A stretch of DNA of 53,043 nt from Gammaproteobacteria bacterium (lineage in GTDB: Bacteria; Pseudomonadota; Gammaproteobacteria; Steroidobacterales; Steroidobacteraceae), in contig DAIDHH010000036.1 in NCBI GenBank assembly GCA_027452045.1, forward strand, positions 1-53,043. The letters run 5' to 3'. Shown here piece by piece: positions 15,148-30,267 of the stretch. The position numbers and the translations under genes were made by a program. Position 1 is the first letter of the stretch, and each line of letters opens with the position of its first letter. The notes beneath the pieces were generated by a model that saw only the letters and a list, made by a program, of their open reading frames with translations, was not told where the DNA came from and did no database searches.

Positions 15148-15156
15148 CCACACCCG

Positions 15157-15708
15157 ATGCGCAGCTACGACAACGAGCCCTTCGTCGTCAACCGTGAAGT
15201 CCGTGCGGTGATCGTGCCCGCCGGCACCGAGCTCACCCTGCAGCCCGGCACCTCCGGTTACATCACCCAGGCCCTCGGTGGCAGTTTCACCGTCTACGTG
15301 GAGGGGAACCTGTTCCGCATCAGCGGCGAGGACGCCGATGCCATCGGCAAGGAGCGGGTGGCCCCGCCGGAACTGCCTCCCAACGCCACGGAGGACGACG
15401 TGCTCAAGCTGGCGTGGGAGCAGATGCGCACCTGCTACGACCCGGAAATCCCGATCAACATCGTCGACCTCGGCCTCGTGTACGACTGCGGCGTGCAGGC
15501 CAACGAGGACGGAACGCGCTGCGTCGAAGTGAAGCTCACCCTCACCGCGCCCGGCTGCGGCATGGGTGAGATCCTGGTCGATGACGTCAGGGACAAGATC
15601 GAGCGGATCCCGACCGTGAAGGAGGTGCGCGTCGAGCTCACCTTCGATCCACCCTGGAATCAGAGCATGATGTCAGAGGCGGCGCGCCTGCAGACGGGGA
15701 TGTACTGA
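15157..15708 (+). CDS. sufT: SufT-type Fe-S assembly protein (MIP18/DUF59 family)
   Basis: A 183-residue protein. Residues 1-70 are a SufT-specific region (VPAGTELTLQPGTSGYITQ) and the rest is a MIP18/DUF59 domain with DPEIPINIVDLGLVYDCGV and LTAPGCGMGEILVDDV, including the conserved cysteine. SufT proteins help mature iron-sulfur enzymes, especially at high demand. It starts 9 bases after sufU and its stop overlaps the next gene as TGATG. Confidence 0.93.
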   Translation: MRSYDNEPFVVNREVRAVIVPAGTELTLQPGTSGYITQALGGSFTVYVEGNLFRISGEDADAIGKERVAPPELPPNATEDDVLKLAWEQMRTCYDPEIPINIVDLGLVYDCGVQANEDGTRCVEVKLTLTAPGCGMGEILVDDVRDKIERIPTVKEVRVELTFDPPWNQSMMSEAARLQTGMY

Positions 15709-16019
15709 TGGGCTGGGTCGATGTCGCGGCGGCGACGCAGCTCGCGGACAGCTCGCCCCTGCCGGTGGACCTCGACGGTCTCGCCCTGATGGTCGTGCGC
15801 TGCGGCGCGGAGATCTTCGCTGTCGATGATGTCTGCACGCACGACGGTGAGGCCCTGGAGGGCGCCGAGGTCGAGTCCTGTGAGATCGTCTGTCCGCGGC
15901 ACGGCGCACGCTTCTGCCTGCGCACCGGCGCGGCGCTCACACCGCCGGCGTACGAGCCGCTGCGCACCTATGGCGTGCGCATCGAGAACGGCCGGATCCT
16001 CATCGAGCGTCCGGACTGA
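15708..16019 (+). CDS. Small Rieske 2Fe-2S ferredoxin-like protein
   Basis: A 103-residue Rieske protein of the non-heme oxygenase ferredoxin type. The cluster ligands are Cys43 and His45 in CTHDGEAL and Cys62 and His65 in CPRHGARF. No signal peptide is seen, so it should be cytoplasmic. It is the last gene of the suf run and is translationally coupled to sufT. The role in cluster assembly is not known; it could supply electrons, or be a client whose level tracks SUF expression. No oxygenase subunit is nearby. Confidence 0.9.
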   Translation: MGWVDVAAATQLADSSPLPVDLDGLALMVVRCGAEIFAVDDVCTHDGEALEGAEVESCEIVCPRHGARFCLRTGAALTPPAYEPLRTYGVRIENGRILIERPD

Positions 16020-16650: not shown

Positions 16651-19005
16651 CTACGCCCGCCAGTCCGCGAGCTGTGTGCCGAGCGGCAGTCGGCGGATGC
16701 GCCGGCCGGTGGCCGCGAAGATGGCGTTCACGAGTGCCGGGGCGATCGGCGGCAATCCCGGCTCGCCGACCCCGCCGAGCGGCACCTCGAATCCCGCCGG
16801 CTGCATATGGATGCGGATGTCCCGCGGCGACTCCGGCAGGCGCAGCACGGGAAAATCGTTGAAGTTGGATTGCTGCACGCGCCCATCCCGGAAAGTGATC
16901 TCACCGTACCTCGCCACGGTGAGCCCCATGATGCACGAGCCCTCGAGCTGCGCTCGTACGCGGTCGGGATTGACCTGCGGACCGCAGTCGAAGGCGATAT
17001 CGACCCGCGGGATGTCAATCTTGCCGCCCGCGCCGACTTGCACCTCGATCACCGCGGCGGCATAGCTCATGAAGCTGTAGGTCGCCGCGAGACCGAGGCC
17101 GCGGCCCTTGCCGAGGGAGCGTCCCCAGCCCGCCTCGCGCGCTGCCCGCTCGATCACGGCGTGCAGCCGCCCGGTGTCGAGCGGATAGCGCTGCGGTGAT
17201 TCACCGTAATTCCATTCGTCCGAGAGCGTCCGGGGATCGATTCGCCGCGGCGGTCCGATGAGCGCGAGTTGATACTCGAGCGGATCGCGGCCCGCCGCAT
17301 GGGCAAGCTCGTCGATGAAGCTCTGGATCGCAAAGCCGTGCGCGATGTTGTATACGGAGCGGAACCATCCGATGCGCGTATAGGCCGGCACCCCGGGGAT
17401 CTCCAGGCGCACGTTCGGGATGCGAAACGGGATGTTGATCATGCCCATTCCGTATTCGCTCGAGTCCTCGCCCTCGGCCCCCGCCTCGAATGTCGCATCC
17501 TCCGTGGGTGAGGCTGAGCGATGCAGCCAGGCAACCGGCAAGCCATCGGGGCCGGCCACCGCCTCGAGGCGCTCGAGAGCGACGGCCTGATAATAGTCGT
17601 GACGGATGTCGTCCTCGCGGGTCCAGGTGACCTTGACCGGGGTTCCACCCATCGCTTTGGTGAGCACGGCCGCCTCGCCCGCGAAGTCCGCGAGCGACTT
17701 GCGACCGAAGGCGCCTCCGAGCAGCGTGACGTGAACCGTGACGTCCGATTCCTTCAACCCGAGGAGTCCGGTCACCAGATCGCGCGTACCCTGGGGATCC
17801 TGCACCGGCGCCCACACTTCGCAATGGCCGTCCACGATGCGCGCGGTCGCAGCGGGCGGCTCCATCGAGGCATGGGCGAGAAACGGCAGGTAATACTCGG
17901 CCTCGATCCGCCGTCCGGCCTCACGCAGCACTCCCATGGCATCGCCCTGATCGCGCACGACCTTGGCGGGCCTGCGCACCGCCTGCTGCAACTCGGTCTC
18001 GAAGCGCTGCGAATCGAAGTGCCGGTTCGGGCCCTCCTCCCAGCGGATCTTCAGGGCCTCCCGGCCCTTGATGGCCGCCCAGGTGTTGCGCGCGAGCACC
18101 GCCACGCCGCCGAGCGGATATGACAGTGCCGGCAGGGGATGGGAGGGAATTTCCACGACCTTCACCACGCCGGGCACGGCAAGCGCCGCCTGCGCATCAT
18201 AATGCGCGAGCTTCCCGCCGAGCACCGCGGGCCGCGCCACGACCGCGTACAACATTCCCTCGAGCCGCGTATCGATGCCATAGAGGGCGCGTCCCGCGAC
18301 GATATCCGCTCCATCGATGAGGCGGCTGCTCGACTTGCCGATGTAGCGGAACTGCTCCGGACGCTTCAGTCGCACGGCGGCCGCCTCGGGGACCGGCTCC
18401 CGCGCGGCCTGCACGGCGAGCTCACCGTAGCTGAGCTTTCTGCCGCTGCCGTGGTGCCACACCTTCTGGCGCTCGGCCACCACCTCGCTCACGGGCACCC
18501 CCCAGTGAGCCGCGGCGGCGCTCTCGAGCATCATGCGGGCGGCGGCCCCCACCCTGCGCATGGGCTCGAAGAAATGACGCATGCTGCGCGAACCGTCGGT
18601 GTCCTGGTTGCCGTAGCGCGCCTGGTCGGCCGGCGCCTGCTCGACGCGCACCTGCGGCCATTCGGCCTCGAGCTCATCGGCCACCACCAGGGCGAAGCTG
18701 GTGCGAATCCCCTGGCCCATCTCGGGCCGATGCACGGTGACGGTGACCGTGTTGTCCGGATGAATCGCGACGAACACCAATGGGTTGTCGACGACTCCGC
18801 CCGGCTCACCGGCCGCACCATATTTCTGGGCGCCGGCGAGGGCGACCCGCCCCGACTGGCGCAGGCACAGCACCAGGCCCGCGGCCGCGAGCGCTCCCTT
18901 CAGGACCTTGCGACGGGCGGGGCTCGGCAACTGCTCCGATTCCGCCGCCGCATCGCACGGCCTGGAGACTGCGCCCGGCGGAGTCGTTGCGGATGATTGG
19001 GTCAT
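16651..19005 (-). CDS. Molybdopterin subunit of an aldehyde-oxidase-type dehydrogenase
   Basis: A 784-residue large subunit of the xanthine dehydrogenase superfamily, of the isoquinoline 1-oxidoreductase beta (IorB) or membrane aldehyde dehydrogenase type. A Tat-like leader is present ([18 protein letters not shown]). Family motifs include [30 protein letters not shown], and [17 protein letters not shown], where Glu748 should be the catalytic base. The partner 2Fe-2S subunit overlaps its start by ATGA and a cytochrome c gene precedes that, the usual three-part periplasmic enzyme feeding the respiratory chain. As the last gene of an amine-oxidation operon it probably oxidises aldehydes released by the amine dehydrogenases. 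Substrate is inferred from context. Confidence 0.88.
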
Positions 19006-19472
19006 CGTGCCTCCCGCAGCTCACGCGCCGCCCGATGGATCGCCGTCCGGATGCGCGGGTAAGTGCCGCAGCGGCAGATGTTGCCCGCCATCGCGGCATC
19101 GATATCCCCATCGGTCGGCTCGGGCGTGTTGCGCAGCAGCGCCACGGCGCTCATGATCTGCCCCGCCTGACAATACCCGCACTGCGGCACCCCGAGGGCG
19201 AGCCACGCCGCCTGGACGGCGCGGCCGATGGGATCGTGCCCGGCCCCTTCGATGGTGGTGATGGATTTGCCCTCGACTGCGCCCACGGGCGTCACGCAGG
19301 TACGCACTGGCTGCCCCTCCACGTGGACGGTGCAGGCCCCGCACAGCCCCATGCCGCAGCCGAATTTCGCGCCGGTGAGCCCGAGCTCATCGCGCAACAC
19401 CCAAAGAAGCGGGGTATCGGCCGCCGCTTCCACCGCTATGGAACGTTCGTTGATGCGCAGCGTCAACGCCAT
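19002..19472 (-). CDS. 2Fe-2S subunit of the molybdenum dehydrogenase
   Basis: A 156-residue small subunit with two 2Fe-2S sites: a plant-type ferredoxin site ([14 protein letters not shown] plus a cysteine in VRTCVTPVG) and an alpha-helical site ([11 protein letters not shown] and [10 protein letters not shown]). It passes electrons from the molybdenum centre to the cytochrome. The start at ATG 19472 gives the canonical N-terminus [12 protein letters not shown]; a frame opening at 19562 overlaps the cytochrome gene. No signal peptide, as expected if it is exported together with the Tat-signal-bearing large subunit. Confidence 0.92.
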
Positions 19473-19483
19473 GGCCTCTCCGA

Positions 19484-20035
19484 TCAGCTTTTGGGCGAGG
19501 AGGAGTTTACTCCGACGGCATACGCGGCGCCGTAGACAGTGAGGCCCGCAGGCACCGCGCACCGGGTCCCGAGGTGCGCCACGACCTGCTCACGATAGGG
19601 CGTGAGCCCGGTCTGGGTCAGTGGCTCGCGACGCAGCCGCGCCACCTCCGCCACCGTGTATCGATGCGCCTCACGACCACCGGCGACAGGCGCCCCGAGA
19701 TCGAAGACCACCCAGTTCATCACCCGGGTCAGCATCCGATCCGAGAGGCTGCTCAGGGCCACATCCGGCAGGCGCACGATGAACTGCCGCCCCTGGCGCG
19801 TGCAGAGGAAACTGCCCGTCAGAGCCTTGAGCGTCGGCACTGCCTGCGGCGCCGACACGCCCTCGACGCCGTGACAGCCCCCACAGGAGGTGAGGTACGC
19901 CACCTGTACCGCGGACAGCCGGCTCACTTTGCGCCCCGGATGGGCCCGAGCCGGCGGCGCGGTGGCGGCCGCAGCGCCCGCCACCGCGACCAGCAGCCCG
20001 CAGAGGATCAGCTTCAGCGCGCGAGGAGTCTTCAT
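19484..20035 (-). CDS. Mono-heme cytochrome c, periplasmic
   Basis: A 183-residue exported protein with a signal peptide ([20 protein letters not shown]) and a single heme site, Cys51-Gly-Gly-Cys54-His55, in [17 protein letters not shown] methionine in [11 protein letters not shown] may be the second axial ligand. It probably accepts electrons from the molybdoenzyme, the TTQ amine dehydrogenase or both. ATG 20035 is followed at once by the leader, and the gene lies 20 bases after the TTQ small subunit and 11 bases before the 2Fe-2S subunit. Only one CXXCH is present, so it is not a MauG-type di-heme enzyme. Confidence 0.87.
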
Positions 20036-20055
20036 GGCGGTCCACCCCACATGAC

Positions 20056-20595
20056 CTATTCCGCCAACCCGACGAGCACCGCCATCGAGCAGTGATACTC
20101 GAAGCTCTGCGTGCCGAAGCACCAGATGATGTGGTTGTTCGCCTGCGGGCGGTAGATCGGCATGGCGTGATCGGTGTTGAGACAGCTGCACTGATTGCAC
20201 TCGTTGGGGCCGCAGCAGTCGCGATAGGCGATGAGGTAGGCGCGCTGATCATCCGGATTGATGCAGCTGCCGATCCACGAGGTGGGCGAGGGCTGCGAGC
20301 CCGGCGGGCAGGAGTGCGTGCTGCCACCGCAGCACGAGCACAGATTCCCGTCAATTCCGCAGTAGCGCCAGTAGTTGCACGCGGTATCGTCGTGCGTCTG
20401 CGCTGCGTGGCTGAAGTCGGTGCCCTTCTGCGCAGGCGCCGCGGCGTCCGCCGCGCGTGCCCGCTGCACCGGCAGCAATGGGAAAGCCGGCGCCGCGACC
20501 AGCAGCGCCCCGAGCCGTGAGAGCGCGCTGCGCCTGGAGAGACGACCGGCCAGCCGTCGCGTCACCCGTTCACCCCAGTTGTCGAGTCGGTTCAT
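20056..20595 (-). CDS. TTQ amine dehydrogenase small subunit
   Basis: A 179-residue catalytic subunit of a methylamine/aromatic amine dehydrogenase. The tryptophans expected to form tryptophan tryptophylquinone are Trp107 (PTSWIGSC) and Trp158 (IIWCFG). Asp82 (YCGIDGN) and Asp126 (YRDCCG) match the conserved catalytic acids. Fourteen cysteines (73 to 169) keep the spacing I recall for aromatic amine dehydrogenase. The leader is long and Tat-like (LSRRSALSRLGALL). The enzyme oxidises primary amines to aldehyde and ammonia in the periplasm. It lies 4 bases after the large subunit, in the order large then small without mauE and mauD between them; those two lie about 6 kb upstream in the same gene run. 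Substrate is not predictable from sequence alone. Confidence 0.93.
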   Translation of the reverse strand: MNRLDNWGERVTRRLAGRLSRRSALSRLGALLVAAPAFPLLPVQRARAADAAAPAQKGTDFSHAAQTHDDTACNYWRYCGIDGNLCSCCGGSTHSCPPGSQPSPTSWIGSCINPDDQRAYLIAYRDCCGPNECNQCSCLNTDHAMPIYRPQANNHIIWCFGTQSFEYHCSMAVLVGLAE

Positions 20596-20599
20596 GATG

Positions 20600-21796
20600 T
20601 CATTCCCCCCTTACGCCCACCAGAGCGGGTGTCACGATCTGTGTCGCCCGCAGCACCGCCCCGCTTTCGGGGCTCATCACCCACAGCCACTTGTGCGAGA
20701 GCGCAAAAAGCAGAGGATGCGCATCCTGCGTGACTGCCACGAGGTACGCCGACTCCGGCACCGCCCAACGATGGAGCAGCCGGTGGGTGCGCGCATCGAG
20801 CACCCAGATCTCGGTCCCCGCCTTCTCGAAGCTCCACGGTGGCCCCTCGTGCATCAGCACGAACAGCCGTCCTCGCGAGCGTTCGTAGGCAGCCGGCACC
20901 TGACCACCGGGCCGCCAGGTGATTTGACCCACGTGCGAGGTGGCGGGCGACAGCCCCGCGGCCTGCTCGATCGACCAGGGCTTGTCGAACTTCGGCGTAT
21001 CGGCCAGATGCACCGGGTGTACCCAGCCGTCGTAGGTGATGAACAGCGCAAGACCGCTCGCGGGGTCGCCGATGCTCTCGTCCATGACCGGGTCGGTCAT
21101 GACGTCGAAGAAGCGCTTGGTCCGGTGGACCGAGTATTTGCCCTGCGCGCTCGCATCGCTCACCGCGAGCGAGCCATCCGCGCAGAGCGAGGCGAAGCCT
21201 CGCTGCCCGAATGGAAACACCAGGCCGCAGCCGGGAATCTCCACCGAATCGACCACCTTGCGCGCACGCAGATCGACGACCGTGACCGCGGGAGCGGGCT
21301 GGAAGCTGTAGTTGTAAGCGTAATGCCCATCGGCGGAGAGCACGAAGCTGTGCGTCTTCGGATCCGAGATCAGACGTCCGGGCAGCGTGATCTCGCCCTC
21401 GTTGGCGAGCGTCGGCCCGCCGTAAATCGACAGCACATCCTCGCGCGTACCCCGGTTGCCGAGCGCCCAGTACGTCTCCGAGATGTACAGCGTCTTGCCG
21501 TCCGGCGCCCACGCGAAATTCGCATACTGCGAAGAGTAGACGCTTGCGACCAGCCCGCCGGAGTCCCCATTGATGATGCGCACTCCGCCGTCGGTGATTC
21601 CGTCCATGCCGCTGTATGCGACATCGTGGGCGGAGAGGCCCGCGAAGGGCGTCACGCCCGCCATCTCGCTTTGCAGCACGGGCGGCGTCGCCGCGCCCGC
21701 CGCCCGCGTGGCCGCACCGGGCCCCATGGCGACCAACATCGACAATGCGGCGACGCCAATGGCCGCTTTGTTCGCCTCATGCGCGATTCGCTTCAT
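20600..21796 (-). CDS. TTQ amine dehydrogenase large subunit
   Basis: A 398-residue exported beta-propeller subunit of the MauB/AauB family. After a hydrophobic leader the propeller repeats appear, for example NGDSGGLVASVYSSQYANFA, TYWALGNRGTREDVLSIYGG, LSADGHYAYNYSFQPAPAVT and VLDARTHRLLHRWAVP. It cradles the TTQ-bearing small subunit encoded immediately downstream. Its first 20 bases lie inside the end of the spermidine-dehydrogenase-like gene, which implies coupled translation of the flavoprotein and the TTQ enzyme. Confidence 0.92.
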   Translation of the reverse strand: MKRIAHEANKAAIGVAALSMLVAMGPGAATRAAGAATPPVLQSEMAGVTPFAGLSAHDVAYSGMDGITDGGVRIINGDSGGLVASVYSSQYANFAWAPDGKTLYISETYWALGNRGTREDVLSIYGGPTLANEGEITLPGRLISDPKTHSFVLSADGHYAYNYSFQPAPAVTVVDLRARKVVDSVEIPGCGLVFPFGQRGFASLCADGSLAVSDASAQGKYSVHRTKRFFDVMTDPVMDESIGDPASGLALFITYDGWVHPVHLADTPKFDKPWSIEQAAGLSPATSHVGQITWRPGGQVPAAYERSRGRLFVLMHEGPPWSFEKAGTEIWVLDARTHRLLHRWAVPESAYLVAVTQDAHPLLFALSHKWLWVMSPESGAVLRATQIVTPALVGVRGE

Positions 21797-23870
21797 ATTC
21801 CGCCCCCTTGGTATTGTGGGACACGAAAGGATACGCGAGCTTCTCCAGCGCCTGCTCCACCGCCCAGTGCGCGGTCAGGAACGCGGCATCGGTGTGCGGG
21901 CTCGCCGCCGCATCGGAGTTGGCCACCGAAATCCGCCCGAACGGCTGGCGGGCGCTGACGCAGGAGCGCTCCGGTGTTTCGGTGAACACCCAGTCCATGG
22001 GATCGTAGAGACTGCTGTAGGTGTAGGAGAACCCGTGGCACCAGCGGTTTACCATGATGCCGAGAATGTCGTTGCGCGGGTCGAACCCGCCCGGCCCGAG
22101 AATGCGCGCGAGCTGCTCGCGGATGTTGCGCTCGAAGCTCTGGAACGAGGTGCCGAGGAGCTCCGCCCGACCCATGCGGTACTGCTCCTTGCGCGCATGC
22201 CCCGGGAAATTCGGGTAACGCGTCAGCGACAGCGCGATCGGATCGCGTGGCGTGGCGGAGTGGCGCAATTCCCCGAGATCCACCGGCTCTGGCAGCCACA
22301 GCCGGTCATGGTACATGGTGGAGCTGCGGACCGCCCGCACGCCGAGCTTCTCGAACGCCTTCCAGTTCTTCAGGAACACGGTCGTGTAAGCGAGCGGCGC
22401 CTTGATGTTGTAGGCCAAGGCGTCCTTCTGCGCCTTCGGGAGCTCGGGAACGACGTACGGGATCATCATGTTCCAGTTGGCCATGATGCAGTAGCGGGCC
22501 CGCACGTCATAGAGCTTGCCGGTGGCACTCGCGGAGGGACTGTAGGATACGATGACTTCCGTGGCGCTCGACGGATCGCCGTCGTGGCGCGCGTTGAGCA
22601 CCGTACTGTCGAGGCGGATGCGCGTCGAGTTTGCCGCATGGTCGAGCCTTGAGTAATCGACCCGGGCCATGCCGACATCCTCCTGGGTCGTGCCGGGGAC
22701 GGCGTCGGGGATGAGCTTGCGCAACAACAGTCGCACCAGAGTGGCGTTACCGTCGGGAAAGTGTACATCACCGTGACCCGGCCGTTGGCGGCCGTGCATG
22801 CCGCCCGGCAGGTCCGCGAGCAGCCCGCGCGGCAGCGGCTCGAGCTTCAGCCCCTGGAATCCCGGCGCACCCATCGCCCAGGCGAACAGCGCAGGCATCA
22901 CGTCCGCACCCGTGCCGAATACGGTGCGCCCGTAGCCGCGGTAGAACCAGTACGCCTGCTTGTCGAGCCTCAAGACCTGCAGCAGATAGTCCTCGAAGCT
23001 CATGCGAGCCAGGCGCAGCAGCTTCTCGCTCTGGCTCATTCCCGCCAGGGGATCGGGCTGCGCGGCGCTCTGCAGGCGCTTCAGATCGGCTTTGGCTTGC
23101 TCGGGCAACGGCATGGCGCGCAGGAAGTCCTCGCCGAAGAGCGGCTGCGAATCCCCCGCGAATGTCGTTGGCCACTCCCCCGAATCTCGCGGCTGGATCG
23201 CCAGACGGTCGGCCCCCCAGGTCTCGCGGTCGAAGAAATATCCCAGGCGCAACCCCATCGAGTCATACAGGCGCTCGTTCGTCTCGTTCGCCTTGACATA
23301 GCGCGGCAGATCGACCCCGATGTCATCGAGCACCTCCTTCGCCCACTGGTTGTAGCGATCGGGCGACTCGATGTCGTAGGTGCCCCCGTTGACCACCAGG
23401 GTGTGGCCACCGTAGTGGAACTCGTTGCGCCGCGCATGACCGCCCACGTCGTCGTTGTTGTCGAGGATCAGCACCCGCGCGCCGCGACCGACGCCCTTGT
23501 GGAAGAAATGCGCGGCCGCGAGTCCGCTCAACCCTCCCCCGACCACCACGAGATCATAGGTCTCCCCAGTGTGCTCGGCGCCACCGAGATCCACCTTGCG
23601 CGTGTCGCGAAGGTGATGGGCCGCGGTAAACGAGCCTGGCGCGAGGCCGCGGATCCCGGTGCGCATCGGTGGATAAGGATAGGTCTCATCCGGGCTCGGG
23701 ACCGGGGCGCTCGGCGAGTCGGCGGGCTTGCCCGCGGCAAGCGCCGTATCGGGCAGAGCGAGCGAGCCGGCGACCATCGCCACGCCATTCAGAAAATCCC
23801 GGCGCGAGATGTCACGATCCATCCCGAGCGAGTGGTCGGAGTCTGAGGGCCGGTCGCTCGGCTTTTTCAT
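21777..23870 (-). CDS. Spermidine-dehydrogenase-like FAD oxidoreductase
   Basis: A 697-residue flavoprotein with a Tat signal (DISRRDFLNGVAMVAG, Arg23-Arg24) and an FAD-binding start VVVGGGLSGLAAAHFF (glycines from residue 111), followed by LDNNDDVGGHARRNEF. This N-terminal layout is that of Pseudomonas aeruginosa spermidine dehydrogenase SpdH, a heme- and FAD-containing enzyme that cleaves spermidine in the periplasm. The C-terminus (RISVANSDAAASPHTDAAFLTAHWA) closes the FAD fold. It is about 75 residues longer than SpdH as I recall it. It overlaps the TTQ large subunit by 20 bases. Spermidine or another polyamine is a reasonable but unproven substrate. Confidence 0.82.
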   Translation of the reverse strand: MKKPSDRPSDSDHSLGMDRDISRRDFLNGVAMVAGSLALPDTALAAGKPADSPSAPVPSPDETYPYPPMRTGIRGLAPGSFTAAHHLRDTRKVDLGGAEHTGETYDLVVVGGGLSGLAAAHFFHKGVGRGARVLILDNNDDVGGHARRNEFHYGGHTLVVNGGTYDIESPDRYNQWAKEVLDDIGVDLPRYVKANETNERLYDSMGLRLGYFFDRETWGADRLAIQPRDSGEWPTTFAGDSQPLFGEDFLRAMPLPEQAKADLKRLQSAAQPDPLAGMSQSEKLLRLARMSFEDYLLQVLRLDKQAYWFYRGYGRTVFGTGADVMPALFAWAMGAPGFQGLKLEPLPRGLLADLPGGMHGRQRPGHGDVHFPDGNATLVRLLLRKLIPDAVPGTTQEDVGMARVDYSRLDHAANSTRIRLDSTVLNARHDGDPSSATEVIVSYSPSASATGKLYDVRARYCIMANWNMMIPYVVPELPKAQKDALAYNIKAPLAYTTVFLKNWKAFEKLGVRAVRSSTMYHDRLWLPEPVDLGELRHSATPRDPIALSLTRYPNFPGHARKEQYRMGRAELLGTSFQSFERNIREQLARILGPGGFDPRNDILGIMVNRWCHGFSYTYSSLYDPMDWVFTETPERSCVSARQPFGRISVANSDAAASPHTDAAFLTAHWAVEQALEKLAYPFVSHNTKGAEYEANRA

Positions 23871-23874
23871 GACC

Positions 23875-24786
23875 TCACAGAACTCCGTCGCTCTTCACGT
23901 GCGGGGCGGCGGGAGTGCGCCCGGCCATACGCTCGCGGCGCGCAGAGCGCAACATCGCCACCGAGGCGTAGAGCACCACCGCCGCCACAAGCCAGCGCAG
24001 CGTGTGCAGAGGCAGCCTCTTGACGATGAACGCGGCGATCAGCACCCCGGCCACACCGGCGGTGGCGAACCCGAGCGCGGGCCCCCAGGCAAAGCGGCGG
24101 CTGCGCAGAAAGCGCACTCCGGCCACCGGCAGCATCACCCCGCCCGAGCCCATCATGATGGGGAAGGCGGCGCGCAGATTGAACCCGAGCAGCGCCAGCA
24201 CCACCATGGTCGGGGCGTACCAGCCGATGCCCACGGTGGACAGCGCTCCCAGAATGAAGTTGGTCGCCACGGCCGCGACGAACCGCCAGCCGCTCAAGGA
24301 GAGGGCCACGCCCCCGACGGGAAACGCACCGAGGTTCCCCATGACGAACGAGACCGCTGCGATCAGCAGGGCAGCGCCCATGAACAGTTGGATCGCGCGG
24401 CGGCGCATGCGGCTCACGATCCCCGCGCCGAGCCACGCACCGGCCGTGGCGCTGCCCACCATGGCGAGCAGCAGCTTCGGATCGACGGTGATGAGGGTGA
24501 CGAAAATGACGGTCTCGGCCATGCCGACCGAGACGCTGCCCACCGTGAGGGTGCCGGGGATGAGCTCATCATCCGGCCGGCCGCGAAACTTGTAGAGCGC
24601 CGTCGTCGTCGCGTAGGAGCCGATACCGAGCGCATCGCCGAAGTTGGTGAGGAACCCGATGCCGAGGTCTGACCAGCTGGGCCGCTCGCGCAGCTCGCGG
24701 CGGCGCGCCAGGGCCAGCCACTGCGCGAAGAATATCGCGCCGAGGATCGCGATCAGCGCGAACAGTCCGATCTTGGCGGGACTCAT
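23875..24786 (-). CDS. TSUP/TauE-SafE family membrane permease
   Basis: A 303-residue integral membrane protein with about eight hydrophobic helices, starting IGLFALIAILGAIFFAQWLAL and including FVTLITVDPKLLLAMVGSATAG and LSTVGIGWYAPTMVVLALLG. These are features of the TSUP (DUF81) family, whose known members move sulfite, sulfoacetate or related anions. Its ATG overlaps the stop of the PuuB-like oxidase gene and it ends 4 bases before the SpdH-like gene, so it is embedded in the amine operon. It may export or import an acid product of the pathway; that is inference. Confidence 0.85.
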   Translation of the reverse strand: MSPAKIGLFALIAILGAIFFAQWLALARRRELRERPSWSDLGIGFLTNFGDALGIGSYATTTALYKFRGRPDDELIPGTLTVGSVSVGMAETVIFVTLITVDPKLLLAMVGSATAGAWLGAGIVSRMRRRAIQLFMGAALLIAAVSFVMGNLGAFPVGGVALSLSGWRFVAAVATNFILGALSTVGIGWYAPTMVVLALLGFNLRAAFPIMMGSGGVMLPVAGVRFLRSRRFAWGPALGFATAGVAGVLIAAFIVKRLPLHTLRWLVAAVVLYASVAMLRSARRERMAGRTPAAPHVKSDGVL

Positions 24787-26096
24787 GCGCCCACCCTGGC
24801 CGGGGCTCGCCTCAAACCGCGCTCGAGCGCATCCCGTGCCTGCAGGTACTGGATGGTCGCCCGGGCGCCCACGCGGCTCAAGGCGTGCAGGCGGATCGGC
24901 TGGACGGGGGTGACTGGGAAATCGAGGCTCGCGGAGGTCTCACCGAGCGCGCGGCGTGCCAACAGGCGCCCCATGGCGGTCGCCATCGCGACCCCGCGGC
25001 CGTTGTACCCGAGCCCCGCCAGCAACCCCGGCGCGGGCTCGTGCAGGTGCGGTATGCCGTCCCGGGTCATCGCCACGAAGCCTCCCCATCGATACTCGAG
25101 CGGTACGCCTGCGAGCTCGGGGTAAAGGTCGCACACCGCCCGTTCGTGGGCGCGCGTATGAACCGGAACAGGCACATCGCCATACGAGCCGCGCGTGCCG
25201 AGGACCAGCCGCCCGCTGGCGTCGAGCCTGAAATAACGCAGTATCCGCTGCGTGTCGGAAACCGACTGTCCCTCGGGCAGGATGCGTGCGCGCAGGCTTG
25301 CCGGGAGCGGCGCGGTGGCAACCTGTATCGAGGGCACCGCGACGACGGTGCGGCGCAATGCATTGAAGGTCCGATCGGTGTACGCATCCGTGGCGACGAT
25401 CACGGTCTTTGCGGTGACGGCACCTTGCTCAGTCTCGAGGCGCCACTCATCGCCAGCGCGCGAGAACCGTCGCGCCGCGCTCGAGGTGAACAGACGTGCC
25501 CCGCACTCCTGGGCGGCCCGCGCGAGGCCGCGCAGATACGCGAGCGGCTGCACGGTTCCGCCGCGTCGGTCGATCCAGCCCCCGCAGTAACGCGCCGTGC
25601 CCGTGAGGCGCGCCGCATCGCGGTCAGACAGCACGGCCGTGTCGGCACCACGGCTGCGCCATTGGGCGGCGCGCCGCTCGAGCGGACCAACTTGCCGCTC
25701 GCTGACGGCCAGTTGTATCCAGCCGGCGCGCACCGCGTCGCACTTGATCGAATACCGGCGGATGAGATCGAACACCAGATCGGGCGCGGTGCCCGAGCAG
25801 GCGATGAGCTGTGCGCCCACGCGCTCGCCGTACAAGGATTCGAGCGTGTCGGGATCGTGCTTCAGGCCGGCGATCACCTGGCCGCCATTGAGCCCCGAGC
25901 CACCGGCGCCGATCTCCGCGGCCTCCAGCACCACGACGTCGCGGCCCCCCGAGGCCGCATGCAGGGCGGCCGAAAGGCCCGTATAGCCGGCGCCGACCAC
26001 CACCACTTCGGCGCGCGTCTCGCTCGATAGGCGCGGCAGAGCCGCCATCGGCGTGCAGGATGCAGCCCAGAGCGAACCGACCGGCTGCGACGTCAA
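24783..26096 (-). CDS. PuuB/OrdL-like FAD-dependent amine oxidase
   Basis: A 437-residue member of the DadA/DAO fold resembling gamma-glutamylputrescine oxidase. The dinucleotide motif is VVVVGAGYTGLSAALH, followed by VVLEAAEIGAGGSGLNGGQV; the end has GLGYNGRGVAMATAMGRLLA. The preceding SLWAASCTP stretch aligns with the SYYAAS lead of PuuB, so I keep the TTG start at 26096, which is the first usable start after an in-frame TAA; ATG 26048 would remove that stretch. No signal peptide, hence cytoplasmic. In this operon it may oxidise a glutamylated or free amine after uptake. Confidence 0.83.
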   Translation of the reverse strand: MTSQPVGSLWAASCTPMAALPRLSSETRAEVVVVGAGYTGLSAALHAASGGRDVVVLEAAEIGAGGSGLNGGQVIAGLKHDPDTLESLYGERVGAQLIACSGTAPDLVFDLIRRYSIKCDAVRAGWIQLAVSERQVGPLERRAAQWRSRGADTAVLSDRDAARLTGTARYCGGWIDRRGGTVQPLAYLRGLARAAQECGARLFTSSAARRFSRAGDEWRLETEQGAVTAKTVIVATDAYTDRTFNALRRTVVAVPSIQVATAPLPASLRARILPEGQSVSDTQRILRYFRLDASGRLVLGTRGSYGDVPVPVHTRAHERAVCDLYPELAGVPLEYRWGGFVAMTRDGIPHLHEPAPGLLAGLGYNGRGVAMATAMGRLLARRALGETSASLDFPVTPVQPIRLHALSRVGARATIQYLQARDALERGLRRAPARVGA

Positions 26097-26116
26097 GGAC
26101 CCACCCCGCTCATGTA

Positions 26117-26142
26117 TTGATTATCGATATTAGTTAATCGAA
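26117..26142. promoter_or_regulatory. AT-rich dyad upstream of the PuuB-like gene
   Basis: TTGATTA and TAATCGAA form an inverted repeat (GATTA/TAATC core) around an 11-base centre, within the only AT-rich patch of the 239-base gap between mauD and the PuuB-like gene. It lies 21-46 bases upstream of the TTG start, where a promoter and operator would be. No convincing -35/-10 pair could be fixed. The rest of this gap (26143-26335) holds no recognisable gene. Confidence 0.4.
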
Positions 26143-26335
26143 CTGTGTCCGAAGCATAGGACAGCTTCGAGGTAGCGTCAATGAATCGCCGGGAGCGAGT
26201 CATGACGGTGCGCAGCACCGGCCCCGAAGGGGCGACTCCCAGGATGGGACGAGCAACGAATCATTGCACCGCGCGCCCCTAACGCAGGCGCGCGCCGCCG
26301 GCGCCGATCCCGCAGGACTTTCGGGGGCGGGTGGG

Positions 26336-26929
26336 TCAGGTAGAGGGCGCGGCGCGCCGGGCGAGGTATTCCTGCACCGAGCGCAATCCCAGCTCGTGCG
26401 CGCTCACCAGGCTCTCGAGGTGCTCGCGGCTGTTGACCAGACCCTGTGCCGCGATGACACCGAGCTCGTTCACCAGCACCGCGTAGGGAAGCTTGGCGAC
26501 CTGGAACGCGCGGCCGGCTTCGGGCGCATCGGCAAAGCGCTCGGGCGCGAGGTCGAAGCGGCGCGCCATCTGTCGCTGTTGGTCGAGGTCGCCGTCCCCC
26601 ACCAGCAGCAGATCGAGCTTCTCGCTCTCGGCGAATGCTTTGACGACGGGCAGGAGGGACTTGCAGATCGGGCAGGTTGGCGAGACGAAAAAGAGCAGCC
26701 GCAGCGCACCGCCCGGTCTTGGCCCACCGATCTCGACCGCACCGTCTGCCAGGGTGCGCACCGTGAGCCGGGGCGCTGACTCCCCGGTCTGCGGTCCACG
26801 CCCCAGGGCGAGCGCCCCGACTGGAGCGATGCGCTCGTGCAGCACCCCCACCTGCCGGGCCAGGGCCAAGACCGCCACCGAGAGTGCGATGACAGCGATC
26901 CACAACATCACCTGGGAGATGAGCAACAT
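26336..26929 (-). CDS. mauD: MauD-like thioredoxin-fold protein
   Basis: A 197-residue membrane-anchored protein with one N-terminal helix (VMLWIAVIALSVAVLALA) and a thioredoxin-like domain whose active site is Cys86-Pro-Ile-Cys89 in FVSPTCPICKSLLPVV. MauD is needed to form the many disulfides of the TTQ small subunit in the periplasm. The ATG shares a base with the mauE stop (TGATG). Its presence strongly supports a functional TTQ enzyme in this operon. Confidence 0.9.
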   Translation of the reverse strand: MLLISQVMLWIAVIALSVAVLALARQVGVLHERIAPVGALALGRGPQTGESAPRLTVRTLADGAVEIGGPRPGGALRLLFFVSPTCPICKSLLPVVKAFAESEKLDLLLVGDGDLDQQRQMARRFDLAPERFADAPEAGRAFQVAKLPYAVLVNELGVIAAQGLVNSREHLESLVSAHELGLRSVQEYLARRAAPST

Positions 26930-27486
26930 CACGCGAACCTTTTTTGAAGCTCTGCCGAGGAGTGGCGCAGGGACAGCAGCTGGTCGAAGGCCCGGTAGAG
27001 CGCGTACGCGGCAAGTCCCGCTCCCACGCCGTCGATCCACTGCAGCGGCCCCACGGGCGGGCTCGTGACACCAAAGAGCGGCACCAGCGCGGCCGAGACC
27101 AGGAGGTTGCGCAACACGAGTCCGACGCTCAACCGCTGCCGCAGTCCCGACTGAAAGCACCCACAGTCGATCTCGCGCCGCCCGCGTGCGAGGTTGATCG
27201 CCATCGCAAGGGCAAAGGCGCAAAGGAGTGCGATCGCGAGCGCCGTGCCCGCCTCGAGCCGCAGGCCGCTCGCGAGCGACACTGCGGTCAGGATCTCCAG
27301 GCCCAAGATCAACCACCCCGCCGTGGCGGCCAACGGCTCGGGCAGCAACCGGTAATTGGCCACCACGCCCGCGAGTTCGTGGCGGTGCCTGAGCTTGCCC
27401 GCAGCCGCCGTGGCGAAGATCAGCGCGCCGAGCAGGCGGCAGGCGAGCGCCACGGAGGGATCGATCGTCATGGTGTCGCCCGTCAC
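26929..27486 (-). CDS. mauE: MauE-like membrane protein
   Basis: A 185-residue membrane protein of the MauE/DoxX-like family with four hydrophobic segments, including LACRLLGALIFATAAAGKL and WLILGLEILTAVSLASGL. The cysteine pair in REIDCGCFQSG is the conserved MauE feature, and with MauD it acts in maturation of the TTQ subunit. The first ATG (27486) overlaps the aminotransferase stop as ATGA; ATG 27471 is an alternative. Confidence 0.9.
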   Translation of the reverse strand: MTGDTMTIDPSVALACRLLGALIFATAAAGKLRHRHELAGVVANYRLLPEPLAATAGWLILGLEILTAVSLASGLRLEAGTALAIALLCAFALAMAINLARGRREIDCGCFQSGLRQRLSVGLVLRNLLVSAALVPLFGVTSPPVGPLQWIDGVGAGLAAYALYRAFDQLLSLRHSSAELQKRFA

Positions 27487-28802
27487 GCGATGCTGCGTAG
27501 CACTGCGCGCAGCGTCTCGATCATGTTGCGAATCTCTTCTTCGCTGGAGATGAACGGCGGCGCGACCGCGAGCGTGTCGGCCGTGAAGCGCAGCAGCAGC
27601 CCCGCCTCGACACCCCGCTCGAACGCTTCCCGCGCTCTTGCGCCAGGCTGCCCCTCGCGCGCACCGAGCTCCACCGCGGCAGCAAGACCGATGTTACGGA
27701 TGTCGATGACGTGTGGCTCGCCTTGCAACGAGTGCACTCCGTCCTCGAGTACTTTCGACAACTTCGCGGAACGTGCAACGAGGTCGTCCTTCTCGAGGGC
27801 ATCGAGCGTTGCGAGTCCCGCGGCGCAGGCCACTGGATGACCGGAATACGTGTAGCCGTGGAAGAGCTCGATGGTCTGCTCCGGCCCTCGCATCATCGCA
27901 TCATAGATGCTCCGGCGCACCACGGTGCCTCCCATGGGGATCACTCCGTTGGTGACGGCTTTGGCGAATACGATGATGTCCGGTGTGACCCCGAGCCTCT
28001 GCGCGGCGAAGTTCGCGCCCAAGCGGCCGAAACCGGTTATCACCTCGTCGAAAATCAACAGGATCCCGTGCCGTGTGCAGATCTCGCGCAAACGCTCGAG
28101 ATACCCCACGGGCGGAACGATGACCCCCGTGGAACCCTGCATCGGCTCAACGATCACTGCGGCGATGGTCGAGGCATCGTGCAGCGCCACCAACCTCTCG
28201 AGTGTATCAGCCAGGTGAGCGCCCCAGGTGGGTTGACCCCGGCTGAAGCGCATCTGTCCCGGATCATAGGTGTGAGGCAGATGATCGACGAATGGGGCGC
28301 TGAGTGCGCCGAATGCGCGGCGATTGGCCGCAATGCCTCCGGCCGAGATTCCGCCGATCCCGACGCCATGATATGCACGCTCTCGTCCGATGATGCGCAC
28401 CCGGCCCGCCTCGCCGCGCGCCTGGTGGTAGGCCAGCGCAATCTTCAGGGCGCTGTCCACCGCTTCGGAGCCGGAATTCGTGAAGAACACCCGGTCGAGT
28501 CCCTCCGGTGCCCAGCTCGCGATCCGCGCGGCCAGCTCGAATACCTTGGGGTGACCCACCTGGAAAGTCGGGGCGAAGTCGAGCTCACCGACCTGTTCGC
28601 GCACCGCCGCGACGATCTCCCGCCGCCCGTGCCCGAGCGGGGTGCACCACAGCCCCGAGAGACAGTCGAAGACCTTCCGGCCGTCGGCCAACGTGAAGTA
28701 GGCCCCTTCGGCGCCGCGCACCAGTGTCGGGTGGCGCTTGAAATAGCGGTTGGCCGTGAAGGGCATCCAGAAAGCGGAAAGATTGGGAGCGCTCGTGTTC
28801 AT
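27483..28802 (-). CDS. Omega-amino acid:pyruvate aminotransferase (class III)
   Basis: A 439-residue PLP enzyme closely patterned on beta-alanine:pyruvate aminotransferase of Pseudomonas: FWMPFTANRYFKRHPTLV, DGRKVFDCLSGLW, GRERAYHGVGIGGISAGG, LLIFDEVITGFGRLG and the PLP lysine Lys281 in VFAKAVTNGVIPMG. Such enzymes move the terminal amino group of beta-alanine, gamma-aminobutyrate, diamines or amines to pyruvate. It is the first gene of the leftward amine operon and overlaps mauE. Omega-amino acids would be expected products of polyamine breakdown, so it may finish the pathway in the cytoplasm. A taurine or putrescine aminotransferase role cannot be excluded. Confidence 0.88.
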   Translation of the reverse strand: MNTSAPNLSAFWMPFTANRYFKRHPTLVRGAEGAYFTLADGRKVFDCLSGLWCTPLGHGRREIVAAVREQVGELDFAPTFQVGHPKVFELAARIASWAPEGLDRVFFTNSGSEAVDSALKIALAYHQARGEAGRVRIIGRERAYHGVGIGGISAGGIAANRRAFGALSAPFVDHLPHTYDPGQMRFSRGQPTWGAHLADTLERLVALHDASTIAAVIVEPMQGSTGVIVPPVGYLERLREICTRHGILLIFDEVITGFGRLGANFAAQRLGVTPDIIVFAKAVTNGVIPMGGTVVRRSIYDAMMRGPEQTIELFHGYTYSGHPVACAAGLATLDALEKDDLVARSAKLSKVLEDGVHSLQGEPHVIDIRNIGLAAAVELGAREGQPGARAREAFERGVEAGLLLRFTADTLAVAPPFISSEEEIRNMIETLRAVLRSIA

Positions 28803-28865
28803 GGGCCGAATATGGGCTCCGCGAAGCCGGCCACCGAGCTACACTCATGCAGATAGGTCACCTCA

Positions 28866-28891
28866 CTGTACTGGCTCGATCGACTATACAG
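28866..28891. promoter_or_regulatory. Dyad in the divergent MocR/aminotransferase promoter region
   Basis: CTGTA at 28866-28870 and TACAG at 28887-28891 form an inverted repeat spanning 26 bases, directly in front of the MocR start codon and 64 bases upstream of the aminotransferase start. The position suits an autoregulatory operator shared by the divergent genes. MocR regulators often bind direct repeats, so this is only a candidate. Confidence 0.35.
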
Positions 28892-28893
28892 AG

Positions 28894-30267
28894 ATGAGCG
28901 CCAAGCCTGCCGACATCCCGAGCCGGGTCGAGGCCCTCGCCGCGGATCTGCGTGGGCGCATCGTCGCCGGCCAGTTAAGTCCGGGCGATCGCCTGCCGTC
29001 GGTGCGCACCCTGGCACGCTCAAAGAGCGTCAGCGCCTTCACAGCCGCACGCGTGTACGAGCTGCTGGTAGCCGAGGGCCTCATCGAGGCGCGTCGCGGC
29101 TCGGGTTACTACGTGGCACGAGATGCGGATGTCTTCGGCGCACGCGGCCTCGCGGCGTCCGAGCCGGTTGTCGACTCGATCTGGGAGCTTCGCCGGGATT
29201 ACGACAGCCGCGTGCTGCGGGTCGATGCGGGTTGCGGATGGCTGCCTCCGGAGTGGCTGTTCGGCGAGGGCGTGCGCGCGGCGCTCACTCAGGTCGCGCG
29301 CCGGCCTGCCGCTTACGCCAGCCGGTACGGAAGCGCATACGGCCTGCGCGCCCTGCGGCATCACCTCGCCCGTCAGCTCACCCTGCGCGGCATGGAATGC
29401 TCCGAGGAGCAGATCGTTCTCACCCACGGTGCAAGTCAGGCGCTCGAGCTCACCATCGGGGCGCTCACCCGTCCGGGGGAAGTGGTGCTCGTCGACGATC
29501 CGGGCTATCCCTACATCCTGTCGATGCTGCGCGCTCGCGGCGTGTCTCCCGTGGGCGTGCCGCGAACGGCCAGTGGCCCGGACGCCGATGCGTTGGATGC
29601 CATCGCCGCGAAAACCCGCGCAAAGCTCTTCTTCACCAATACGACCTATCAGAACCCCACCGGGACGAGCACCTCCGCGCAAACCGCGCATGCGGTGCTG
29701 CGCGTGGCGGAAAAGCACGGACTCACCCTCTGCGAGGATGAGATCTTCGCCGAGCTCTCGCCCGATCCGGTCACCTCGCTCGCCTCCCTCGATCGTCTGG
29801 AGCGGGTCATCTACATCGGCAGCTTCTCCAAGACCATCGCCCCGGGCCTGCGCGTGGGCTACCTGGTCGCCCGCCCCGAGCGCTCGAGACAGCTCGCGGC
29901 GCTGAAGAACCTGACCTCGCTGTCTTCCTCGGAGCTGATGGAGCACATCGTGCTCGCCATTTTGACTGCCGGCCGGCACCGCACGCATCTCGAGCGGCTG
30001 CGCCGCCGGATCGCGGAGGCACGCGCGCGACTCACCCGAAGATTCCGCGAGGCGGGCATCGAAGTGACGCCGCACGGCGGCGGGATGTTCCTGTGGGCAA
30101 AGCTCGGCGGCGATCCGGCGACGCTGCTGCAGCGCGCCAAGGCGCTTGGCATTCTGCTCGCCCCCGGGGAGATCTTCCATCCGGACGGTCAGCCGAGCGG
30201 CCATTGGCGATTCAACGTGGCGTACGCCGACGATGAGCGGCTGTATGCTTTCCTTCGTGACTTGTGA
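28894..30267 (+). CDS. MocR-type GntR/aminotransferase fusion regulator
   Basis: A 457-residue regulator. Residues about 10-75 are a GntR winged helix (LSPGDRLPSVRTLARSKSVS, then YELLVAEGLIEARRGSGYYV); the rest is a fold-type I aminotransferase-like effector domain with LTHGASQALELTIGAL, FFTNTTYQNPTGTS and the PLP lysine Lys313 in IGSFSKTIAPGLRVGYL. Relatives such as GabR and TauR sense amino compounds through PLP. It is divergent from the omega-aminotransferase and so is the best candidate regulator of the amine operon. The ATG at 28894 starts just before the DNA-binding domain. Confidence 0.9.
   Translation: MSAKPADIPSRVEALAADLRGRIVAGQLSPGDRLPSVRTLARSKSVSAFTAARVYELLVAEGLIEARRGSGYYVARDADVFGARGLAASEPVVDSIWELRRDYDSRVLRVDAGCGWLPPEWLFGEGVRAALTQVARRPAAYASRYGSAYGLRALRHHLARQLTLRGMECSEEQIVLTHGASQALELTIGALTRPGEVVLVDDPGYPYILSMLRARGVSPVGVPRTASGPDADALDAIAAKTRAKLFFTNTTYQNPTGTSTSAQTAHAVLRVAEKHGLTLCEDEIFAELSPDPVTSLASLDRLERVIYIGSFSKTIAPGLRVGYLVARPERSRQLAALKNLTSLSSSELMEHIVLAILTAGRHRTHLERLRRRIAEARARLTRRFREAGIEVTPHGGGMFLWAKLGGDPATLLQRAKALGILLAPGEIFHPDGQPSGHWRFNVAYADDERLYAFLRDL

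Follow-up and report, generated by a model that had tools for sequence, protein, structure and literature searches.

The eleven genes at positions 16651-28802 of the window, i.e., the 53,043-nt stretch of DNA that was analysed, seem, by slightly better than an even chance, to encode the periplasmic part of a regulon for amine oxidation under IclR control, with polyamines as the most likely substrates. Polyamine catabolism was favoured because of a shared 15-bp site, an aminobutyraldehyde dehydrogenase, a SpdH-type flavoprotein with its haem ligands, and a transaminase of the beta-alanine type. The preliminary description had proposed one pathway for a polyamine or similar amine; its functional linkage and polyamine reading gained support from the shared site, the transaminase type and the SpdH haem ligands, while the single transcript and SpdH as a core member were not supported.

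Gene identities and transcription units

All eleven ORFs were found on the minus strand with the spacing described before, and the only large gap was that of 239 bases; the spacings are those of the ORF coordinates, with some start codons read separately. The gene at 27483-28802 encodes a class-III omega-aminotransferase of the beta-alanine:pyruvate type, which scored 675.9 bits with the AptA equivalog model NF052567 (cut-off 500) and matched the beta-alanine--pyruvate transaminase 4b98 in the PDB (E 1.9e-143). It overlaps by 4 bases with mauE (26929-27486, start GTG at 27486; PF07291, E 1.8e-24), encoding a membrane protein of TTQ enzyme maturation, and mauE overlaps by 1 base with mauD (26336-26929), encoding a thioredoxin-like maturation protein just below the cut-off of TIGR02661 (184.6 bits, cut-off 188.6). 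After the 239-base gap come a DAO-family FAD amine oxidoreductase (24783-26096; PF01266, E 9.3e-63), in which no signal peptide was seen, and, overlapping it by 4 bases, a TSUP (TauE/SafE) permease (23875-24786; PF01925, E 1.9e-14), for which a PADLOC scan gave nothing. The earlier statement that each family oxidises amines or aldehydes, or matures such enzymes, fails for this permease.

A gap of 4 bases separates the TSUP gene from that of the SpdH-type spermidine dehydrogenase (21777-23870), an NAD_binding_8 flavoprotein with a Tat-like signal, which overlaps by 20 bases with the TTQ amine dehydrogenase large subunit (20600-21796; PF06433, E 2.3e-36). The small subunit follows after 4 bases (20056-20595; PF02975, E 1.1e-51; Tat-like signal), and a mono-haem cytochrome c of 183 aa after another 20 (19484-20035; one CxxCH motif, CGGCH), whose PF00034 score was sub-threshold (18.5 bits, cut-off 21.3). 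The [2Fe-2S] subunit of a Mo aldehyde dehydrogenase lies 11 bases further on (19002-19472; PF01799 (Fer2_2) and PF00111 (Fer2)) and overlaps by 4 bases with the Mo-binding subunit (16651-19005; MoCoBD, Tat-like signal). Divergent from the operon, on the plus strand (28894-30267), is a MocR-type regulator (GntR plus aminotransferase-like, PF00392 and PF00155), whose nearest NCBIfam was PdxR (263 bits, cut-off 320) and which adjoined the aminotransferase in all seven type A loci having the aminotransferase there.

The 239-base gap contained a sigma70-like promoter, TTGACG-N17-TATGCT (26153-26181, minus strand). All 11 type A loci whose upstream region was in view had TTGACG, a spacer of 17 (18 in L188) and TATGCT or TATCCT, and the pattern was found in none of 20 other DAO loci. 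Since a consensus scan of the region performed at chance (1 found, 1.1 expected as the shuffle mean), the case for the promoter rests on its conservation. A 15-bp near-palindrome, TATCGATAATCAATA (26115-26129, minus strand), was located 18 bases before the DAO start and is proposed as an IclR operator; a site of this type, agreeing at at least 13 of 14 positions, occurred in 22 of 31 DAO loci, a scoring that took in L041 although its upstream region is out of view. The general form of the proposed IclR target is TATCGATnATCRATA, and TATCGGTAACCGATA is a further candidate site. In one relative, about 3.2 kb of DNA that includes a match to an IS1-like transposase lies inside the gap, and promoter and operator are intact. 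Because the gap holds the conserved promoter and the near-palindrome, the genes probably form two transcription units, aminotransferase-mauE-mauD and DAO-TSUP-(SpdH)-TTQ-cytochrome c-FeS-Mo. This speaks against the one transcript assumed before, although read-through could occur.

The TTQ enzyme and its maturation

TTQ enzymes are known as methylamine (MADH) and aromatic amine (AADH) dehydrogenases. The small subunit passed the MADH light-chain model TIGR02659 (205.1 bits, cut-off 196.85) and kept both TTQ tryptophans, W107 and W158, which aligned to the MADH tryptophans, were invariant in 14 sequences, and presumably have the TTQ role of W57 and W108 of MADH. Its core contained 14 Cys, as in AADH. 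The large subunit matched the MADH heavy chain in the PDB (E 4.3e-30) and was far under the equivalog cut-off of TIGR02658 (127.9 versus 454.45). Judged by the small-subunit fold and the large-subunit match, the pair belongs to the TTQ amine dehydrogenase (MADH/AADH) family.

Within that family, the window small subunit was nearer to MADH (3c75, 1.9e-57; 1.4e-41 over 2bbk-type mature chains) than to AADH (4.7e-37), and the small-subunit tree placed it on the MADH side, so that neither alignment scores nor tree indicated a closer relation to AADH. The tree, of 139 rows, covered loci L031-L176, two PDB segments and the window, using distinct cores that had an identifiable start motif, contained no stop and were 95 residues or longer; it has few columns and long branches, some of which meet. 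Sister species carried TTQ enzymes of two deep lineages, one MADH-like and one AADH-like, with overlapping partner sets: the type B small subunits grouped with AADH, and AADH was the best match of L034. Substrates may therefore differ between them. The pocket residues of the window small subunit look MADH-like; prediction of the substrate from the pocket was dropped, since the type B enzymes with overlapping partners look AADH-like.

These sisters, together with the match to the MADH light-chain model, the frequent loss of SpdH and the sometimes unlinked aminotransferase, would suit catabolism of aromatic or other monoamines (phenethylamine, tyramine, histamine, methylamine) as in AADH/MADH clusters, with SpdH, aminotransferase and aminobutyraldehyde dehydrogenase as passengers. 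We consider this improbable, because a beta-alanine-type transaminase and a putatively co-regulated aminobutyraldehyde dehydrogenase fit neither aromatic amines nor methylamine; an aromatic or methylamine pathway was disfavoured as the sole reading and kept as a rival.

MauG (TIGR03791) was above the cut-off in none of 22 genomes searched, 18 of them TTQ-positive, in a search of chosen genomes out of 148 that had no MauG-bearing genome as positive control; the mauG expected of methylamine dehydrogenase proper was thus not found. Sub-cut-off matches occurred in 15 of the 22, TTQ-less genomes included (best 175.9 versus 443.85), and no match at all in seven, including G000 (75% complete), G031 (97%) and G045 (96%).

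The DAO protein has itself been weighed as a TTQ-biogenesis factor replacing MauG, by analogy with QhpG for CTQ, rather than as a catabolic enzyme. Its close homologs are nearly confined to TTQ genomes (TTQ in 35 of 38 DAO genomes versus 50 of 148 overall), and 30 of 42 close matches have a TTQ small subunit no more than 15 kb away; the MauG result points the same way, and a flavoprotein likewise serves another tryptophylquinone according to PMC7876137. Such a role is nonetheless very improbable, given the protein's match to the DAO amine-oxidase family and the lack of a DAO homolog in 72 of 74 TTQ loci outside the genus (many cut by contig ends). Its earlier label as a PuuB-like oxidase held as far as the DAO family and no finer: the best NCBIfam, pipecolate oxidase AmaA, scored 356.5 bits against a cut-off of 600, and no close solved relative was found (best E 1.6e-8). 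A PuuB acting with a ligase of the regulon's own was rejected, as no regulon-specific PuuA was found, though the PuuB role itself could still apply. Two glutamine-synthetase-family genes were present in seven of eight genomes and three in G006, TTQ-less genomes included; the second copy in the window's genome scored 181 versus 650 for gamma-glutamylputrescine synthetase and adjoins PuuD-like and PotF-like genes.

Conservation of the locus and the shared site

In the uncultured genus, the conserved core consisted of mauE, mauD, DAO, TSUP, both TTQ subunits, cytochrome c, 2Fe-2S and Mo genes. Relatives show this gene order of the core again, with their proteins mostly 65-98% identical, so the arrangement is more than chance. 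SpdH is an optional member: among 12 window-type loci it was intact beside the large subunit in three, after Mo in one, a remnant in three, without trace in four and out of view in one. Since most of these loci lack it or have it decayed or relocated, spermidine cannot be an obligate substrate. The aminotransferase preceded mauE in 7 of 10 loci reaching upstream of mauE (not in L044, L058 and L188), and G006, G013 and G036 carried it on a different contig. Among 17 chosen genomes of 148, it was also found in five of six TTQ-less ones, four times at 78-80% identity. Its presence there and its unlinked position in some loci indicate a general enzyme of the genus.

What follows Mo differed between loci: some had no further enzyme, others SpdH, a gene of a PQQ-dehydrogenase cluster, or an aminobutyraldehyde dehydrogenase with such a gene. 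This variable content, and the multiple TTQ loci in several relatives (six in G010), would accord with broad periplasmic scavenging, in which TTQ, SpdH and Mo enzymes, with PQQ-type dehydrogenases in relatives, feed cytochrome c from mixed amines, alcohols and aldehydes without a single substrate. We regard that as unlikely, because a defined substrate class is what one would expect from a proposed operator that the locus has in common with an IclR/TonB-receptor pair and aminobutyraldehyde dehydrogenase.

Outside the genus, 74 TTQ loci were compared, many of them cut by contig ends and with L097-L102, of the window's genus, left out. A cytochrome c homolog occurred in 72, SpdH in 3, DAO in 2, and TSUP or the IclR ortholog in none; FeS and Mo genes lay within about 10 kb of TTQ in 27 (sphingomonads, acetic acid bacteria). 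SpdH beside TTQ is optional within the genus and rare elsewhere. Of the combination of TTQ, SpdH and Mo enzymes presented as undescribed, TTQ near FeS-Mo proved widespread, and SpdH, DAO-TSUP and the shared operator are what is rare. In Novosphingobium, Acetobacter, Asaia and Gluconobacter, which share FeS and Mo near TTQ with the window, the order is mostly large subunit-mauE-mauD-small subunit-cytochrome c, and FeS-Mo is often divergent. The aauBEDA (AADH, Alcaligenes faecalis) and mau (MADH, Paracoccus) clusters have mauE-mauD between the subunits. They resemble the window in TTQ subunits, MauE, MauD, cytochrome c and both TTQ tryptophans, whereas the window has mauE-mauD in a separate upstream unit, extra DAO, TSUP, SpdH and Mo genes, and no MauG over the cut-off.

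The 15-bp site recurred elsewhere in the window's genome (C27:9133, 9203 and 12155), flanking an IclR/TonB-receptor pair and standing 25 bases before an aminobutyraldehyde dehydrogenase gene (779.5 bits, cut-off 615). An ortholog of the latter, 87% identical, lies directly 3' of Mo in one locus (L058/L101). Among 14 chosen genomes of 148, this enzyme was tied to the putative regulon only in G000 and G049 (site before the gene) and G034 (inside the operon); it was away from any site in G003, G031 and G045 and present in five of six TTQ-less genomes. The IclR ortholog was found in 16 of 19 TTQ-positive versus 0 of 9 TTQ-negative genomes, the site and ortholog searches covering 29 chosen genomes of 148. 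The IclR protein may bind the site. One point against the polyamine reading was the TonB receptor, an odd feature where the substrates are small polyamines.

Proposed polyamine oxidation

The window flavoprotein resembles P. aeruginosa SpdH 7d9i (E 2.5e-125, residues 21-670) and keeps both haem-ligand histidines in a full-length alignment (His54 and His562, numbered as in PMC12564564), which marks it as a likely SpdH. According to PMC9397018, SpdH converts spermidine to 1,3-diaminopropane and aminobutyraldehyde, and spermine-derived 3-aminopropanal gives beta-alanine via KauB. The window shares with this P. aeruginosa pathway the SpdH with both haem ligands, the beta-alanine-type transaminase and a putatively co-regulated aminobutyraldehyde dehydrogenase, and differs in adding a TTQ enzyme, a Mo aldehyde dehydrogenase and a proposed IclR-type regulon.

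The Mo subunit matched the large subunit of 8gy3 (E 4.5e-76, residues 40-775), the Gluconobacter membrane-bound aldehyde dehydrogenase; the alignment was nearly full length, and both have a small 2Fe-2S partner, so the two subunits are predicted to form a Mo aldehyde dehydrogenase of the acetic-acid-bacteria type. That enzyme has a multi-haem cytochrome c subunit, whereas no gene for one was found in the window operon, only the mono-haem protein encoded upstream.

The substrate, the direction of flow and export, like any roles of the DAO protein and permease, are inferred, and the proposed course is as follows. With MauE and MauD for its maturation, the TTQ dehydrogenase would oxidatively deaminate the terminal primary amine of a diamine (1,3-diaminopropane, putrescine). 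The exported Mo/2Fe-2S enzyme would oxidise the aminoaldehydes to beta-alanine or GABA, as might the putatively co-regulated cytoplasmic aminobutyraldehyde dehydrogenase in the window's genome; the AptA-like transaminase would pass amino groups to pyruvate, and electrons from the periplasmic enzymes would go to cytochrome c. The aminotransferase-mauE-mauD unit would stand next to its MocR regulator, and the gap promoter and operator would drive the DAO to Mo unit, under an operator common to the TonB receptor, the IclR gene and the aminobutyraldehyde dehydrogenase. DAO and TSUP have no step in this scheme, which was counted against it, as was the PuuD-/glutamine-synthetase-/PotF-like cluster of the window's genome, by which the cell may already have an intracellular route for polyamines.

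More tentatively, and with the odds somewhat against it, the whole may be an IclR regulon for periplasmic polyamine respiration, comprising a TonB receptor, a MauG-free TTQ diamine dehydrogenase, an optional SpdH, and Mo and aminobutyraldehyde dehydrogenases, in which the TTQ enzyme was exchanged between the two deep lineages and the regulator, the operator, DAO and TSUP were retained. No such TTQ-polyamine or IclR-polyamine system appeared in the titles and abstract openings of the open-licence papers that were listed. The analysis supplies a short putative operator open to testing and a candidate regulator. Near-complete genomes with the TTQ set, MauE and MauD and no MauG-like match offer a route to the question of MauG-free TTQ completion, for which mauE, mauD and the mono-haem cytochrome c are candidates because they are common to most such loci. 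If the proposal is true, TTQ enzymes would gain a place in polyamine catabolism through their conserved association with SpdH, aminobutyraldehyde dehydrogenase and a beta-alanine-type transaminase.

Gene content and conservation of the operon

The window, contig 36, belongs to a metagenome-assembled genome of 3.7 Mb and 75% completeness. Open reading frames, family models and start codons bore out the eleven minus-strand genes (16651-28802) and their spacing as given in the preliminary description. A MocR-type regulator gene (28894-30267), with an amidase gene behind it, diverges from the aminotransferase gene. The aminotransferase passed the AptA equivalog model in the profile search (675.9; cut-off, 500), and its nearest solved relative was beta-alanine:pyruvate transaminase 4b98, while that of the Mo subunit was the aldehyde dehydrogenase large subunit 8gy3. 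The TTQ small subunit matched the MADH light chain 3c75 best (1.9e-57) and AADH second (4.7e-37). Both TTQ tryptophans were invariant across the small-subunit alignment (14 relatives), and the core contained 14 cysteines, equal to the AADH segment (14; MADH segment, 12). The spermidine dehydrogenase-type protein (SpdH) aligned with P. aeruginosa SpdH over residues 21-670 (2.5e-125), and histidines, counted by hand in the alignment, occupied both positions named as the haem-b ligands of SpdH in an excerpt of PMC12564564. Twin-arginine, Tat-like motifs were seen by eye in the translations of SpdH, the TTQ small subunit and the Mo subunit, and these three proteins are predicted to be exported.

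PF02975 gave 67 matches among 148 genomes, 50 of which, including that of the window, had at least one; the window proteins were mapped onto the stretches around all 66 other matches. Twelve loci were window-like (type A: the window, L039, L041, L044, L045, L047, L050, L051, L057, L058, L069 and L075), with the order mauE-mauD-DAO-TSUP-(SpdH)-TTQL-TTQS-cytc-FeS-Mo as far as the contigs extend, where DAO is a flavoprotein and TSUP a TauE/SafE permease. A thirteenth locus, L188 in genome G036, ran mauE-mauD-DAO-TSUP to the contig end. The expectation that the genes are conserved together in relatives thus held for this core, but SpdH was optional and the aminotransferase was loosely linked. SpdH was intact next to TTQL in three type A loci (window, L044, L045), 3' of Mo in one (L075), a remnant in three (L041, L047, L058) and without trace in four (L050, L051, L057, L069); in L039 its position lay outside the visible sequence. 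In the more distant locus L071, SpdH was also immediately 5' of TTQL. SpdH looks ancestral in these loci, with several apparent losses. Of the 10 loci with the region upstream of mauE in view, 7 had the aminotransferase and MocR genes there (the exceptions were L044, L058 and L188). An aminotransferase ortholog lay on a separate contig in G006, G013 and G036, and homologs occurred in 5 of 6 TTQ-less genomes tested, four of them at 78-80% identity.

The slot after Mo varied (L044, L058, L075), holding a PQQ-dehydrogenase-cluster gene, an aminobutyraldehyde dehydrogenase gene or SpdH. Genes named by eye at the Mo end were suf-like Fe-S assembly genes in the window (13334-16019) and L047, and cytochrome c, IclR and TonB receptor genes in several other type A relatives. 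Genome G010 carried six TTQ small-subunit loci (L042, L048, L071, L080, L083, L087), three within ~30 kb, some surrounded by SpdH copies, IclR, gamma-glutamyltranspeptidase and TonB receptor genes.

The mauD-DAO gap and the proposed regulon

Alignment of the 239-base gap in eight relatives showed TTGACG-N17-TATGCT, followed by TATCGATAATCAATA, a proposed IclR operator, directly before DAO; L050 had a weaker version of this site. The promoter-like element was present in all 11 type A loci with the upstream region in view, counting the TATCCT variants of L051, L057 and L188 (spacer 18 in L188), and in none of 20 other DAO loci. Conservation is the evidence for the promoter, since a consensus scan of the region found one against 1.1 expected. 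Operator-like sites matching at least 13 of 14 positions occurred in 22 of 31 DAO loci, type B (described below) among them, against 23 of 2000 random stretches from the same loci, in which real sites are possibly included. In L057, ~3.2 kb of extra DNA separated mauD from the DAO promoter; it holds a P63C-domain gene and a match to an IS1-like transposase, which scored 26.6 bits (cut-off, 24.1). Promoter and operator-like site are intact there. These conserved elements speak against the single transcript proposed earlier, and two transcription units are probable. A second conserved block, GTACAGT..GG.G..CTATC....GAGTGTAGC, in the regulator-aminotransferase intergenic region (~28803-28893) is a candidate MocR site.

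The operator-like pattern was scanned through 29 chosen genomes, 20 of them TTQ- or DAO-bearing. With one mismatch allowed it occurred in 27 of 29, far above the reversed control, including 7 of 9 TTQ-less genomes; exact matches occurred in 15 of the 20 and in none of the other nine. The window's own genome has further sites at C27:9133, C27:9203 (one mismatch) and C27:12155. They fall in the interval separating a TonB receptor gene from an IclR gene, and 25 bases upstream of an aldehyde dehydrogenase gene; this layout recurs in G049. The IclR ortholog was found in 16 of the 29 genomes (16/19 TTQ-positive, 0/9 TTQ-negative, 0/1 DAO-only). The aldehyde dehydrogenase passed an aminobutyraldehyde dehydrogenase model (779.5; cut-off, 615) and fell below the stricter ABALDH equivalog cut-off (734.6 vs 909.3); its ortholog, 87% identical, follows Mo within the operon at L058/L101, a single locus. 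Homologs occurred in 11 of 14 genomes tested. Presence in 5 of 6 TTQ-less genomes, and distance from every site found in G003, G031 and G045, count against its membership of the regulon.

Two TTQ lineages and their maturation

In sister species, AADH-like loci (type B) typically had the layout DAO< | TTQL> TTQS>, frequently with SpdH or Mo nearby. In a 139-row small-subunit tree, type A formed one group on the MADH side (support 100/99), and type B clustered with AADH plus four ungrouped rows (100/95). The tool flagged this tree for its small number of columns and its long branches, which include MADH and AADH. The window small subunit was 56-68% identical to sphingomonad and 44-49% to type B small subunits; identities between types were 52-62% for DAO (window vs type B) and 59-65% for IclR. 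No type B locus was found among the mapped TTQ loci of type A genomes. These comparisons are most simply read as a replacement of the TTQ enzyme within a retained regulon, although the partner genes may instead have been acquired twice.

All 13 TTQ genomes tested had MauD, and none of the 3 TTQ-less ones did; in some type B genomes (G001, G033, G043) the best MauD gene shared a contig with the TTQ subunits but lay 20-42 kb away from them. Scored against the model's own cut-off, MauG (TIGR03791) was called in none of the 22 genomes searched, a set that included 18 TTQ-positive ones. Sub-cut-off matches occurred in 15, and none at E 0.001 in seven, including type A G031 (97% complete) and G045 (96%), which have the TTQ enzyme and MauD despite zero matches. 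In MADH, according to an excerpt of PMC7876137, MauG acts on mono-hydroxylated Trp, the formation of which is thought to be autocatalytic.

Specificity of the partner genes and proposed pathway

Close DAO homologs (E <= 1e-70) gave 42 matches in 38 genomes, 30 at <=15 kb from a TTQ small subunit, and TTQ was present in 35 of the 38 (Fisher p 1e-18, relatedness of genomes ignored). SpdH homologs (E <= 1e-40) gave 90 matches in 55 genomes, 15 at <=15 kb; every one of the five most similar (>=65% identity) was near TTQ, and most of the remainder were unlinked. In an outside-genus set of 74 TTQ loci (L103-L176, from 80 retained matches), a cytochrome homolog occurred in 72 and an aminotransferase homolog in 11. 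TTQ with FeS-Mo was common (27/74) and TTQ with SpdH rare (3/74). With DAO in two and TSUP in none of the 74, this pair is near-private to the window's group; the IclR ortholog was likewise found in none. The pairing of TTQ genes with SpdH, put forward for a search across genomes, occurred in type A loci, where it is optional, and in L071, and was rare outside the genus.

On contig C155 of the window's genome (L198:26-3243), PuuD-like, glutamine-synthetase-like and PotF-like genes stand in a row, all under equivalog cut-offs, possibly representing an intracellular gamma-glutamyl polyamine route.

The gene set is real and conserved, and there is more to the locus than was first described. In the SpdH chemistry given in PMC9397018, spermidine yields 1,3-diaminopropane and aminobutyraldehyde, and the 3-aminopropanal from spermine is converted to beta-alanine by KauB; the window genes and the proposed regulon fit this polyamine scheme. 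We infer every step past gene identity: the TTQ enzyme would deaminate a diamine, and the Mo enzyme would oxidise aminoaldehydes.
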